From assembly GCA_937858705.1 (NCBI GenBank), contig CALLZM010000006.1:186001-250000 (forward strand): a stretch of 64,000 bases of DNA, written 5' to 3'. Position 1 is the first letter of the stretch. Each line of letters starts with the position of its first letter. Origin of the DNA: an uncultured Candidatus Saccharibacteria bacterium. GTDB lineage: Bacteria > Patescibacteriota > Saccharimonadia > Saccharimonadales > Saccharimonadaceae. A program made the translations under genes and the position numbers. The notes beneath the pieces were generated by a model, which saw nothing but the letters and a program-made list of their open reading frames with translations, had not been told where the DNA came from and did no database searches. Positions 46,271 through 55,218 of the stretch are shown here, in pieces.

Positions 46271-46933
46271 CTACGCGTATAATGCTTTGCGTAACTTCTC
46301 GATATCTGGCACGGTGATGAAGCGATGTTTGATATGAATGAGCCCTTGTTTTTTTAGTTCGCTGATAATTTTGCTGGTGGTTTCGCGGCTAAGATGAGTC
46401 CAGCTGGCGATGATACTTTGATTCACGGGGATCTCGATAAAATAACTGTCATCGGGTTGATGAAAGCTGTAATAGCGAGCCATGGCGAGAAGCCAGCTGA
46501 TGATACGACGGCGGGGTTGTTTTTCTCCGATATAGAGGATGCGCTCGATGAGGAGGTTGTGGTTTTGTAAAATTCGTTCGTGCCATTCGCGGAATATCTC
46601 AGGATTTTGTTGCATCGCAGCGATAAACTCACTTCTTGGCATGCGCCAGACGATACAGTCGGTGTGGGCTTCGTACTCTAGCTCGACATGCGGCATACTG
46701 TAGAACGACCCACTTTGGGTGATGGTCATGCCTGGGATGCCAAAGCCGAGCACGCGTTCGTTGCCGATATCGTCGGTGAACATCATTTTCACATACCCAC
46801 TCTCGATGAAGAAACTCCATGGACTGTCTTCTTCGCGCCGTACGAGCAGCTGCCCCTTTTTGTAGATGACTTTTTGGCCGTGCTTTTGCAGATAAGCAAG
46901 GTGGCTGTGGGCGTAGCTGTGAAAATCTGACAT
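46271..46933 (-). CDS. Crp/Fnr-family transcriptional regulator
   Basis: 220 aa from ATG 46933 (an ATG at 46945 would add four residues but abuts the likely -10). N-terminal cyclic-nucleotide-binding-like beta-roll, lacking the GE-x2-AL/RTA phosphate-binding cassette of CRP and lacking the Cys cluster of Fnr (one Cys only). C-terminal helix-turn-helix with recognition helix HLSRETTSKIISEL: Arg183, Glu184 and Lys188 match the CRP contacts Arg180, Glu181, Arg185 that read TGTGA. A perfect TGTGA-N6-TCACA lies in its own promoter, and two more copies precede the cobalamin/ribonucleotide reductase genes. Signal is unknown. Confidence 0.92.
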   Translation of the reverse strand: MSDFHSYAHSHLAYLQKHGQKVIYKKGQLLVRREEDSPWSFFIESGYVKMMFTDDIGNERVLGFGIPGMTITQSGSFYSMPHVELEYEAHTDCIVWRMPRSEFIAAMQQNPEIFREWHERILQNHNLLIERILYIGEKQPRRRIISWLLAMARYYSFHQPDDSYFIEIPVNQSIIASWTHLSRETTSKIISELKKQGLIHIKHRFITVPDIEKLRKALYA

Positions 46934-46954
46934 ACTTTCCAGCATATCATAAAA

Positions 46955-47084: not shown

Positions 47085-49031
47085 GTGAAGATAGCAACAC
47101 AACGAAAAAATATTATGCAGCGCGTGCAGCTCTTTGTGGCGGCAGCGGTGCTGGCAACGAGTAGTCTGTATGGCTTGGTGACATCACATACCGCTAGTGC
47201 GGCAATCGACCGCGATGCAGTGGCGATGCACGGGCAGATTATCGACACCTACGACAATCAGCCGATTCCATCTGCAGAGATTTGGGCTGGCTGTGGCGAA
47301 AGCCTTGGCACACTGATTCAGGCTGACGCCACGGGGTCATATAGTCTCACGAAAGGGCAATTGTACGATTTTATTGACTATGAGTGTCCGTTCGCTCTGG
47401 GTTTGGCCATGAATGCCTACGAAGAGCAGTATGATCGGGGTGATGACGAGTGGGTCAATTTCGACCATGATTATGATGATTGGGATCAGTGGATTGACGA
47501 GCACTTTACTGGGCAATATTTTGACTTCCACTTGACTGGTGACGGCAGCCAGGACAAAACAGCACAGACCGGATTTACAAATGTAAGCGACAAGATGGCC
47601 ATGACTGGCACGACACTGGCGGTTACTGACCTGCAGGTTACCGGTGCGGGCAACGATGAGCTGGATGTAACTCTCAAGGCGACTGGCGGCGGCACGATTG
47701 ATTTTACACATGTAACTGGAGTAACGGCTACTGGCCGTGGCACGAGCTATGTCATGTTGACAGGTAATCGCGATGATATCAACAGCGCCCTGGCTACTAT
47801 GCAATACACAGCTGGCAGTGTTGGCGAGGTGACTATCACGGCAGAACTGGGCAATAATGTCGGCGATGTGTTATGGAATAATGGTGAGGACGGCAATGGT
47901 CACGCCTACATCGTGGTGAGCGACTCTATGACATGGCACCAAGCCGAAGCGGCTGCCCAAACCTACAGATTTGGCGGACAGACCGGTTATCTCGCGACAA
48001 TCACCAGCGCACAGGAAAATGCATTCATCTACAACAATTTGCCCTCTGCTAACCGCACTGGCTGGCTGGGTGCCACCGATGAGGCCGTCGAGGGTACCTG
48101 GCGCTGGCAAACTGGCCCCGAGGCCGGAGACTTGCTGAGCTACACCAACTGGAGCGCTGGCGAGCCAAACAATCAGAGCAACGAAGATTGTATGCAATTC
48201 GTCACTGGTGGCCAGTGGAACGACATTTCATGCAGTAGCTCTCGCCGATTTGTCGTCGAGTTCGGTGGTGCCTCGCTGCCACAACCGACTCGCAGCCAGT
48301 TTACGATCACTGTCGTCCCACGCACCTACACGCTGACATTTGACACGCAGGGCGGCAGCGCCGTCGCGCCAATCACCGGCCTTGATCAGAATGAAGAGGC
48401 AACCCTGCCCGCTGCACCAACCCGAACTGGCTATGTGTTTGTGGAATGGAACACGGACGCCGACAGAGAGGGTATCGACTTTAACGCTGGCGAGACCGTC
48501 GTTATCAGCGACGACATGACATTCTATGCCATCTGGGACGAAGATGCGAACGATGATACTATTCCTGACGGCAACCAAAATGTCATCAGCCTGACCGACC
48601 CAACGACAGATAGCAAAGTGGTGCTGGAAGTAGATGATAGCTGTGACGTATCCCTTGCCTCTATGGTGCGTGCCAGCGACTTCACGGTCAAAGACGCTGC
48701 GTACACATATGACACTGGCTTTGTGGATTTCACGGCGACAGGCTGCGACGACGACAAAACGATCGTCAAACTGTATTACTACGGCGTCTCGGCCGACGGC
48801 TTGACCGTGCGCAAACACAACCCGAACAACAACAGCTTCTTCACGATTAACGACGCCTTGCTAACCAAACGCATCATCACCGAGCAAAATGTCACGGTCG
48901 TATCATACGAAGTTACCGACGGCGGCGACCTCGACATCGACGGACTGAAAAACGGCACCATTGTCGACCCAGTGGGCTTAGGAAAATTAGTTATAGGCGT
49001 ACCAAACACTGGCCTCGGCGGCAGGCAATAA
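47085..49031 (+). CDS. Secreted C-type lectin-domain surface protein with LPXTG-like end
   Basis: 648 aa. Signal peptide (about residues 11-42). A short N-terminal beta domain (GQIIDTYDNQPIPSAEIWAGC), a cadherin-like middle, then a C-type lectin fold (about 270-390): SWYQAEA-like TWHQAEAAAQTY, GYLATITSAQEN, TGWLGATDEAVEGTWRW, NWSAGEPNNQSNEDCMQF and a closing Cys. A Listeria-Bacteroides (Flg_new) repeat follows (about 415-485). The C-terminus reads VIGVPNTGLGGRQ then stop: VPNTG resembles a sortase motif, but the usual hydrophobic helix and basic tail are absent. The start is GTG with AGGGAG upstream. Directly followed by a sortase-fusion gene. Probably binds sugars at the host or own surface. 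Confidence 0.82.
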   Translation: MKIATQRKNIMQRVQLFVAAAVLATSSLYGLVTSHTASAAIDRDAVAMHGQIIDTYDNQPIPSAEIWAGCGESLGTLIQADATGSYSLTKGQLYDFIDYECPFALGLAMNAYEEQYDRGDDEWVNFDHDYDDWDQWIDEHFTGQYFDFHLTGDGSQDKTAQTGFTNVSDKMAMTGTTLAVTDLQVTGAGNDELDVTLKATGGGTIDFTHVTGVTATGRGTSYVMLTGNRDDINSALATMQYTAGSVGEVTITAELGNNVGDVLWNNGEDGNGHAYIVVSDSMTWHQAEAAAQTYRFGGQTGYLATITSAQENAFIYNNLPSANRTGWLGATDEAVEGTWRWQTGPEAGDLLSYTNWSAGEPNNQSNEDCMQFVTGGQWNDISCSSSRRFVVEFGGASLPQPTRSQFTITVVPRTYTLTFDTQGGSAVAPITGLDQNEEATLPAAPTRTGYVFVEWNTDADREGIDFNAGETVVISDDMTFYAIWDEDANDDTIPDGNQNVISLTDPTTDSKVVLEVDDSCDVSLASMVRASDFTVKDAAYTYDTGFVDFTATGCDDDKTIVKLYYYGVSADGLTVRKHNPNNNSFFTINDALLTKRIITEQNVTVVSYEVTDGGDLDIDGLKNGTIVDPVGLGKLVIGVPNTGLGGRQ

Positions 49032-49051: not shown

Positions 49052-50476
49052 ATGATGTGGGGAATGCTACTATTGGCCCACCTGGTGGGGCTGGTCGGCT
49101 ACAACTTGCTGCTGCGGCGCACGGCCGTGGCGGGCAAGTTCCACCCGTGGGTGCTGGCCACGCTGTTGCAGACGGGCATCATGGTGCCGATGCTGCTGGC
49201 TGCGCCGTTTTTGCCGATGGACTTTGGCCGGATTGACGCTGCGGCTGCGGCGGTGATGGGCCTAGCGGTCGTGCTCGGTATCGTGCTGCTGGTCGGCATC
49301 ACCAAGGCACTGCACTATCTCGAGGCCAGCACATTTTCGATTGTCTATAATCTCCGCATCATCATTGTCACGCTACTGGCAGCCTTGCTATTGTCTGAGC
49401 TGCCGTCGCTGGCGCAAATCGGCGGCGGGCTGCTGATACTGGCCGCCATCTTCATCGTCCGACAAAAGGGCAGCCAAAAGATGACGCGCCGTGGCTTTGC
49501 CTGGGGTATTGCCATGGCGTGTACGATTAGTGTCCTCGGCGTCGCCGAAAAGTACATCATCAATGAAGTCGGCGTCTACACGGCCGCGCCCATCGTCACA
49601 CTGACAGTCGGCGTCATTATGTGGGCAGTGGTGCTGGCGCGGCGCTTGCCCGTGCCAAAGCGGCAGGTGTTTACCAAGCATGTCATCTGGCTGCTGGTGC
49701 TGCGCTCGCTGTCCAACTGGGCATTTATCTTTGCGCTGGCGGCTGGTGCGCTGGTGGGTGTGGCGACATTTGTATCGGCGCTCAGTGTGGTGGCGATTGT
49801 GGCGCTGGGTGCGCTACTGCTGGGCGAGCGGGATTATTTACGGCGTAAAGTTATCGCAGCCGCCATTGCTGTTATCGGCCTGGTGGCGGTGCTATTTGGC
49901 AGCAACCTGTGGCCGCTGGCGCAGCAGCCTGCCCAACCAGCGCAGCCCGCCGCCGTCATCACACACTCCACCGACCAGCCTGATGAGAAAAAGCCGAGTG
50001 CAGACTACAAATGGCAAGGCAGCGCCAACGACCCCAAGAAGATTATCATGCCAAGCATCGGCGTCGATGCCTACCTACAAAATGTCGGTGTTGACCAAAA
50101 TAAAGAAGTTGCCGTGCCGAACAATATTCACATAGGCGGCTGGTTTGTCGACAGCGTCCGCCCGGGCGAAAAAGGCCTCAGTATCATCGACGGCCACTTA
50201 AATGGGCCGAACGAAGACGGTATATTTATCAACCTCGACAAAGTCAAGCCAGGCGACACCTACACCATCGAGTTTGGCGACGGCAGCAAAAAAGACTTCC
50301 GTATCAAATCCATTCAAGCGGTAGACCTCAAAGAAGCCGCCAGCGTCCTCTTCTCGCAGGGCCCAAGTATCGCCAACCAACTCACCCTCATCACCTGCGG
50401 AGGCACCTATGATCAGGCGATGCATTTGTACGACAAGCGCATTATTGTTGTCTCGGAGCTAGCATCGTATAATTAG
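49052..50476 (+). CDS. EamA (DMT) transporter fused to a class F-type sortase
   Basis: 474 aa. Residues 1-290 give ten hydrophobic helices in two EamA-type halves. After a Pro/Ala-rich linker (about 291-325) comes a sortase domain: IIMPSIGVDAYLQNVGVD, HIGGWF, IIDGHLNGP with His382, LTLITCGG with Cys449, and YDKRIIVV with Arg463, the full catalytic triad. Basic loops after helices 1, 5, 7 and 9 predict both ends outside, so the sortase would be extracellular. The fusion is unusual. The stretch is clearly GC-rich (42 of 60 bases at 49081-49140), unlike its neighbours, suggesting transfer or different selection. The lectin protein 20 bases upstream is the obvious candidate substrate. Confidence 0.85.
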   Translation: MMWGMLLLAHLVGLVGYNLLLRRTAVAGKFHPWVLATLLQTGIMVPMLLAAPFLPMDFGRIDAAAAAVMGLAVVLGIVLLVGITKALHYLEASTFSIVYNLRIIIVTLLAALLLSELPSLAQIGGGLLILAAIFIVRQKGSQKMTRRGFAWGIAMACTISVLGVAEKYIINEVGVYTAAPIVTLTVGVIMWAVVLARRLPVPKRQVFTKHVIWLLVLRSLSNWAFIFALAAGALVGVATFVSALSVVAIVALGALLLGERDYLRRKVIAAAIAVIGLVAVLFGSNLWPLAQQPAQPAQPAAVITHSTDQPDEKKPSADYKWQGSANDPKKIIMPSIGVDAYLQNVGVDQNKEVAVPNNIHIGGWFVDSVRPGEKGLSIIDGHLNGPNEDGIFINLDKVKPGDTYTIEFGDGSKKDFRIKSIQAVDLKEAASVLFSQGPSIANQLTLITCGGTYDQAMHLYDKRIIVVSELASYN

Positions 50477-53668: not shown

Positions 53669-53769
53669 ATATCTAGTATACACTGCGAGCAGAGTAAGCG
53701 CTTGCGTTATTACTCTCGGCAAATTATGATAGGAGCATAACTTATAGATGCTAAAAATAGGGAGTGTGC

Positions 53770-55218
53770 ATGAATGACCAGGATCGTATGAATGATAATC
53801 CTCAGGAACTACCGAATGAACGACCGGAAGAACAACAGTATGATGATGGAATAGATCAGTTTGTTGCTGACGAGCCTGCAATAGAAGCCAAAAATCCAGA
53901 AAGCGAACCCACCGAAGGCGATGAAATGTCGGCATATCATCCAGAAATTATGCGAGTTGAAGAATCATCTTCTGATACTTTTGTAGAGCCAGTACTTCCC
54001 TCTCAGCCGACGAGTGAAGCGGTCTCGACGCATACTCTTGAGGAGCCAGTGAGAAAGAAGTCGAAGCGACCTCTTGTATTTGCCTTGCTTGGTGTAGCGT
54101 TGGTGCTCGCCGCGACTGTGATTGTGTATGTGTTGATGCAGCAAAATAGTTCGGAAGAGGCAACAGGGCATGATCAATCTGCTACTCCTCAAACTCAAAG
54201 AAATGTGCTCGGTTTGCAGGCAATTGTGGTTGATGGCGGTGCGGAATATCGAGCGCAGTCAGGTGACTGGCAGGCGTTAGCAGTTAATATGCAGGTTGCC
54301 GAAGGTGGTGAAGTTCGAACGGCACCTAATGGTCGAGTGGTATTGTCTTTTGATGACGGGAGTGTCCTTCGGCTCGATGCTAACAGCCAAGCTCGAATCG
54401 ATAGTCTTGCTACGAATGATATAAAAATTGCTCACTTAAGCGGCACGGTGTATTCTCGAGTGGTTGAGAGCGATCGAAGCTTTGTGGTAACGGTTGACGG
54501 AACTTCATTTACTGCTCTTGGCACAGCATTTGCTACCACGAATACCGTGAGTGAAAAAGGTGTGCAAGTATACCAAAGCCAAGTGAAGGCGAGTGAAGTT
54601 GCAGAGGCTATTGCTGAAGGGAAGCAATATTATAAAATGAATCCAGATAAAACATTGAAGGATTCAGTAACCGATATCGATGTGAGTGCACTTGCAGATA
54701 ATGCCTTTTTAGCATGGAACACGAGCGAAGACGAAAAAGACGCCAAATTTAAAGATAAGCTCGGTATTCTCAGCAAAGTAAAAGAAAAATCGAACGAAAA
54801 AGCTGAAGAAAAAGAGAAAAAACAGCAAGCTGAGAAAAGTGTAACCGAAAAAACTAAGCAAGAAACAGAAAAAAAGACAAAAGAAAAGCAACAAAAATCT
54901 GAAAAGCAAAACAATAGCAGCAAAGAAAAAGTCACGCCTGGGACGATGAGTATTACTGCCTACGGCGATAAGGTTCGCTGGAGTTACACAGGCAAGGCGG
55001 TACATGGCTATAAGATGGTAGTGAGTAAAACCAGCCAAACGCCAACTTTTGGCAAAGATCATGCAATATATTACCCTACTATCGGTGATGAATGGGGTGA
55101 ACTCGGCAAAAAAGATGCTCCAGGAACCTATTCCGTACGAGTGTGTGCCTACACTGCCGGTACACAAGACCAGCCTTGCATTGATTACTCACCCGTCGTT
55201 ACTATTACGAAAAAATAA
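53770..55218 (+). CDS. FecR-domain membrane protein with Lys/Glu-rich coiled coil
   Basis: 482 aa. An acidic, disordered N-terminal cytoplasmic part (1-95), one TM helix (about 102-122), then an extracellular FecR domain (about 140-270): VDGGAEYRAQSGDWQAL, AEGGEVRTAPNGRVVLSFDDGSVLRLDANSQARI (landmarks). A long Lys/Glu/Gln coiled coil (about 325-385) and a final beta domain follow. FecR normally couples a TonB receptor to a FecI sigma factor, but neither is nearby; in other bacteria isolated FecR domains sense or bind surface molecules. ATG 53770 with AGGGAG upstream is chosen over GTG 53764. Confidence 0.78.
   Translation: MNDQDRMNDNPQELPNERPEEQQYDDGIDQFVADEPAIEAKNPESEPTEGDEMSAYHPEIMRVEESSSDTFVEPVLPSQPTSEAVSTHTLEEPVRKKSKRPLVFALLGVALVLAATVIVYVLMQQNSSEEATGHDQSATPQTQRNVLGLQAIVVDGGAEYRAQSGDWQALAVNMQVAEGGEVRTAPNGRVVLSFDDGSVLRLDANSQARIDSLATNDIKIAHLSGTVYSRVVESDRSFVVTVDGTSFTALGTAFATTNTVSEKGVQVYQSQVKASEVAEAIAEGKQYYKMNPDKTLKDSVTDIDVSALADNAFLAWNTSEDEKDAKFKDKLGILSKVKEKSNEKAEEKEKKQQAEKSVTEKTKQETEKKTKEKQQKSEKQNNSSKEKVTPGTMSITAYGDKVRWSYTGKAVHGYKMVVSKTSQTPTFGKDHAIYYPTIGDEWGELGKKDAPGTYSVRVCAYTAGTQDQPCIDYSPVVTITKK

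Follow-up and report, generated by a model that had tools for sequence, protein, structure and literature searches.

A sortase fused to an EamA transporter in Saccharibacteria, and the tail-less sorting motifs found beside its clade

The window analyzed here, i.e., a stretch of 64,000 nucleotides of contig CALLZM010000006.1 from an uncultured Candidatus Saccharibacteria bacterium (genome G000 of the comparison), contains a gene in which an EamA/DMT transporter runs directly into a sortase. This locus raises the question of how such a protein arose, on which substrate its sortase acts and what a transporter contributes to it. The analysis points, as the likely answer from sequence comparison, to a dedicated class F-like sortase that would act on exported proteins devoid of a membrane tail, and that would be anchored by its fused transporter with the catalytic domain facing outside. 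The tail-less sorting motif found beside one sortase clade is a more general novelty than the fusion. The features at the center of this question are the following:

49052–50476, plus strand: EamA/DMT transporter-sortase fusion protein, 474 residues (open reading frame, Pfam, AlphaFold2 model, full-length relative in genome G140)
47085–49031, plus strand: presumed substrate, a secreted surface protein of 648 residues (open reading frame, Pfam, NCBIfam, frame inspection)
48693–48983, plus strand: choice-of-anchor U domain of the surface protein, residues 537–633 (NF041766)
48999–49031, plus strand: tail-less sorting signal VPNTG-LGGRQ-stop (sequence, frames, comparison with 44 choice-of-anchor U proteins)

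The surface protein combines a signal peptide with C-type lectin, Listeria-Bacteroides repeat and choice-of-anchor U domains, and its stop codon sits 20 bp ahead of the fusion gene. Its chain ends with the xPxTG pentapeptide VPNTG (48999–49013), LGGRQ and the stop, and no hydrophobic or charged tail follows VPNTG in any frame up to the fusion gene. A frameshift or a lost tail was rejected as an explanation, since neither of the two other frames encodes a tail beyond the stop. Read-through from the substrate gene into the sortase gene was rejected too, the frames being different and the overlaps short. At the same locus of a second uncultured Saccharibacteria bacterium (G140, contig CALMCP010000024.1), the surface protein ends similarly in VPRTGLGGTR-stop. 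That of a third genome (G152, JAPUET010000024.1) carries an ordinary tail made of LANTG, a hydrophobic stretch and KR.

Sortases of the family were gathered together with their flanking genes and labeled by the C-terminus of the upstream protein, this label being assigned independently of the tree. In the tree of 88 family sortases, the six with a tail-less neighbor form one clade (support 99/97), inside which the fused pair is found. Sorting the 44 distinct choice-of-anchor U proteins of the family by their C-termini gave 34 with a hydrophobic tail, one disrupted protein and nine tail-less ones, all nine falling in the six genomes carrying this sortase clade. One of these genomes (G046) encodes three of them, two being located away from the sortase gene. 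As an out-of-sample test beyond the family, 315 genomes of the order were searched with a profile of the clade. A tail-less protein was found at all seven clade loci with a nearby surface gene (eight proteins, in G259, G321, G307 with two, G312, G315, G336 and G367), while three other clade members had no visible partner. Lower-scoring sortases of two genomes that also hold clade members (G321:C12 and G312:C126) have ordinary-tailed partners. In a tree of 35 rows, the clade comprises 16 sortases from six families (support 99/97) with zero tailed partners inside. Partners are thus tail-less for 13 of 13 clade sortases for which one was found, in a sample built by similarity whose rows are related by descent, whereas the sister clades go with ordinary tails. 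Every one of the 17 tail-less proteins, nine from the family and eight from beyond it, keeps the xPxTG motif. These neighbors are presumed substrates, and some are not directly adjacent to the sortase gene.

Other sortase loci were recorded during this comparison. In 33 of the 88 family sortases (L019–L024, L027, L032–L034 and others), a class F-like sortase gene directly follows an apparent secY gene, recognized by eye from its C-terminus; these sortases form nearly one clade, which hints at a link between such a sortase and the Sec translocon. The window's genome itself encodes another class F-like sortase (L002, G000:C2) adjoining a protein whose tail is of the ordinary kind (GVPNTG-helix-RKARQ), and one more sortase (L003, G000:C6) whose neighboring choice-of-anchor U protein carries LAATG and is tailed in the ordinary way.

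Taken as a mechanism, the pairing of this clade with tail-less partners would proceed as follows. The surface protein would be exported by Sec, the substrate of the fusion being most likely the lectin-like protein encoded directly upstream. Cys449 of the sortase would then cut its C-terminal VPNTG between T and G, freeing only a few residues, and the cut protein would be joined to a nucleophile of the envelope. A tail-less exported protein would have to be caught before diffusing away. As nothing holds such a substrate in the membrane, it is probably captured at the translocon exit, as its C-terminus emerges; alternatively, it may be retained under the cell envelope. A canonical sorting signal consists of a motif, a hydrophobic stretch and a charged tail (PMC12445088; PMC13251363). 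The partners described here resemble LPXTG-type cell wall sorting signals in that a Sec-exported surface protein bears xPxTG close to its C-terminal end, but they lack both the hydrophobic stretch and the charged tail, and 1 to about 19 residues separate TG from the end of the chain. Staphylococcus aureus SrtA attaches externally added, tail-less LPETG-amide on living cells, hence the tail is dispensable for the chemistry, although this synthetic motif was supplied by experimenters and is no natural exported protein (PMC3929722). In the same study, the tail was suggested to be important solely when a protein is exported from the cytoplasm.

Several points weigh against this proposal. Earlier work cited in PMC3929722 held that exported proteins need the tail, the topology of the fusion is a charge-based prediction, and the fusion, being confined to two genomes, is rare. 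Besides, the tail-less partners might simply be secreted proteins whose motif is a relic, in which case they would be no sortase substrates. This last explanation agrees with the textbook three-part signal (PMC12445088; PMC13251363), but it appears rather unlikely, given that the tail-less ends track one sortase clade inside and outside the family; it is also weakened by the persistence of xPxTG in every tail-less protein. A tail-less xPxTG sortase system present in several Saccharibacteria families, any supply role of the transporter being set aside, is held to be likely, to practically the same degree as the dedicated sortase with its fused anchor.

The fusion protein itself is organized as follows:

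49052–49903, plus strand: EamA/DMT module, residues 1–284, ten helices, predicted N-out/C-out (Pfam EamA, model, PDB fold matches, loop charges)
49904–50035, plus strand: linker, residues 285–328 (two alignments; low predicted local distance difference test score, pLDDT, at 294–299)
50036–50476, plus strand: class F-like sortase domain, residues 329–474 (Pfam, NCBIfam, residues, fold matches)
50195–50197, 50396–50398 and 50438–50440, plus strand: catalytic codons of His382, Cys449 and Arg463, respectively

The frame at 49052–50476 is single and uninterrupted over its 474 codons. A preliminary description of the locus had proposed a ten-helix EamA module running into a complete sortase with His382, Cys449 and Arg463, and this was borne out by Pfam, by the residues and by the AlphaFold2 model. 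Indeed, EamA (PF00892) matched in two stretches with 39.5 bits against a cut-off of 28.2, Sortase (PF04203) matched residues 333–470 with 57.9 bits against 26.6, and the three catalytic columns are invariant across the clade alignment. The model, built with 32 related sequences, reached a mean pLDDT of 90.8 and a predicted template-modeling score of 0.73, and displays ten membrane helices and a sortase beta-barrel separated by a disordered linker near residues 290–300. In Foldseek comparisons with the PDB, the halves matched separately: the sortase half met class C and class A sortases, and the transporter half met DMT transporters including LicB, the triose-phosphate translocator and YddG, with the ten-helix DMT fold recovered in 7paf (TMt 0.75), 5y78 (0.72) and 5i20 (0.68). 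A sequence profile search of the PDB with the EamA part gave no match, and the search of BFVD returned EamA-like matches from giant viruses, with no fusion among the significant ones. As for the sortase class, type F was the best NCBIfam match as initially stated, but its score (NF033748, 102.9 bits) is under the cut-off of 166, as are those of five other Saccharibacteria sortases tested (87.7–103.1 bits). These enzymes are therefore named class F-like only. They share with class F sortases the catalytic residues and, in the standalone relatives, an N-terminal membrane anchor, and the fusion differs from them in its score, in the ten-helix transporter replacing this anchor and in its tail-less partners.

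Whether this architecture is real was decided by the second genome. The window belongs to a draft genome of 31 contigs, which could favor an assembly or sequencing artefact, but the independent assembly of G140 carries a full-length fusion, 70% identical over residues 1–471 and in identical gene order. The fusion is therefore no join artefact, and the chance of an artefact is negligible. G140 came from the family-level search of 245 genomes, the window's genome being covered at the family level; a first scan for related loci using the whole fusion protein gave no match. No third fusion was found by transporter-profile searches of three overlapping genome sets (393 from the order, 394 from the family and 380 from the phylum), nor by the clade-profile search of the 315 order genomes, and none of the long sortases collected is a multi-helix sortase. 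A widespread family of fusions was hence rejected for the genomes searched.

The origin of the fusion can be read from its separate relatives. At the corresponding locus, G152 encodes a standalone transporter of 283 residues, 64% identical to the EamA half; it aligns with the full length of the fusion transporter, the tenth helices matching each other. Standalone sortase relatives consist of one N-terminal helix, a linker and the catalytic domain, and the linker of the fusion keeps the stretch "HSTDQPDEKKP..YKWQG" common to them (two alignments). As the transporter is full-length and the sortase linker intact, only the anchor helix was exchanged, and the alignments indicate that a gene fusion put a ten-helix transporter in place of the usual single membrane anchor of the sortase. 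Between the window and G140, identity amounts to 68% in the transporter half, 78% in the sortase half and 76% in the surface protein. In both halves, the nonsynonymous divergence (dN) is far below the synonymous one (dS), the latter being near saturation, and the conservation of the EamA half is distributed across all helices. By these comparisons, both halves look functional, and the transporter half is intact and probably active in transport. A transporter of the same group in another genome (L013/L095, G095:C3) is seemingly split by a frameshift, possibly as a decaying copy or through a sequencing error.

The side of the membrane on which the sortase lies was assessed from loop charges. The positive loops reported after helices 1, 5, 7 and 9 were found again, with 16 lysines and arginines in odd loops and one in even loops. 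This pattern predicts an N-out/C-out orientation with the sortase outside the membrane; on the same charge prediction, the fusion differs from the N-in/C-in topology of characterized EamA members. The fusion resembles EamA/DMT transporters (PF00892; YddG, LicB, triose-phosphate and nucleotide-sugar carriers) in its ten helices, two EamA halves and Foldseek fold. It is set apart by its C-terminal enzyme domain and by its charges: both ends of E. coli YddG bear charges typical of the cytoplasmic side, and, read by eye, the K/R residues of E. coli YddG and EamA lie instead in the loop behind helix 2 and at the N- and C-termini. The topology had been presented as the reverse of that of known EamA proteins such as YddG. 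The charge prediction holds, but it is common to all 50 of 50 related Patescibacteria transporters, standalone ones included (10–19 K and R in odd loops for complete proteins, 0–4 in even loops), and is therefore inherited rather than specific to the fusion.

What the transporter contributes is weighed from the same loci; the first two possibilities are variants of the main reading that differ from it in the role given to the transporter half. It could export or flip the nucleophile used by the sortase, i.e., an amino acid, an amine or a lipid-linked acceptor, thereby coupling export and attachment. The predicted geometry sets the outer mouth of the transporter beside the sortase, its fold is similar to that of amino-acid, sugar-nucleotide and choline carriers, and both halves are conserved. 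However, the clade relatives have a single-helix anchor with no such transporter gene alongside and apparently do the same job, the G152 transporter has a tailed protein but no sortase as its neighbor, and other members of the transporter group occur without sortase neighbors. Because the relatives manage without it, a transporter feeding the nucleophile receives low weight and is judged unlikely; the fuller statement, a natural tail-less xPxTG sortase system with one branch fused to a transporter that supplies the attachment acceptor, is a still longer shot. It is an even bet that the transporter has its own locus-linked job, e.g., uptake or efflux of a lectin-bound compound, the fusion sharing only expression and anchor. 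The G152 locus fits this possibility in having a Crp-like regulator, a surface protein and a standalone EamA protein without a sortase, but the persistence of the fusion in two diverged genomes is then unexplained, even though it may have persisted by chance. Finally, the EamA part may be a mere membrane anchor that has lost transport, as it stands in for the anchor helix of related sortases. Its 64% identity with the standalone G152 transporter and 68% with the G140 counterpart, together with conservation over all helices, make such a loss improbable.

In the open-licence literature searched, which gives weak evidence of novelty, no paper was found joining EamA with a sortase domain or describing a transporter-fused sortase, consistent with the initial claim of an undescribed architecture, and none linking a sortase and a sorting signal with Patescibacteria. 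Searches for surface proteins demand both the motif and the membrane tail (PMC13251363), so tail-less substrates would be missed by them. What class F sortases do physiologically is still unknown (PMC13251363). With the fusion, the idea of a transporter feeding or positioning a sortase becomes directly testable. Many Saccharibacteria live on other bacteria, and little is known of how this group displays its surface proteins.

The locus includes one further gene, upstream of the surface protein:

46271–46945, minus strand: divergent Crp-family regulator (Pfam HTH_Crp_2 and cNMP_binding)

Judged by reading the sequences, a Crp-like gene is also present at the G140 and G152 loci, where it is divergent as well, and close to sortases of the clade in G303 and G321. 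In the latter genome, locus L255 (G321:C7, 4347–8754) holds two tandem sortase genes, with a tail-less surface protein and a Crp-like regulator alongside. Elsewhere in the window, positions 53764–55218 encode a single-helix FecR-domain protein that includes a long KE-rich segment.
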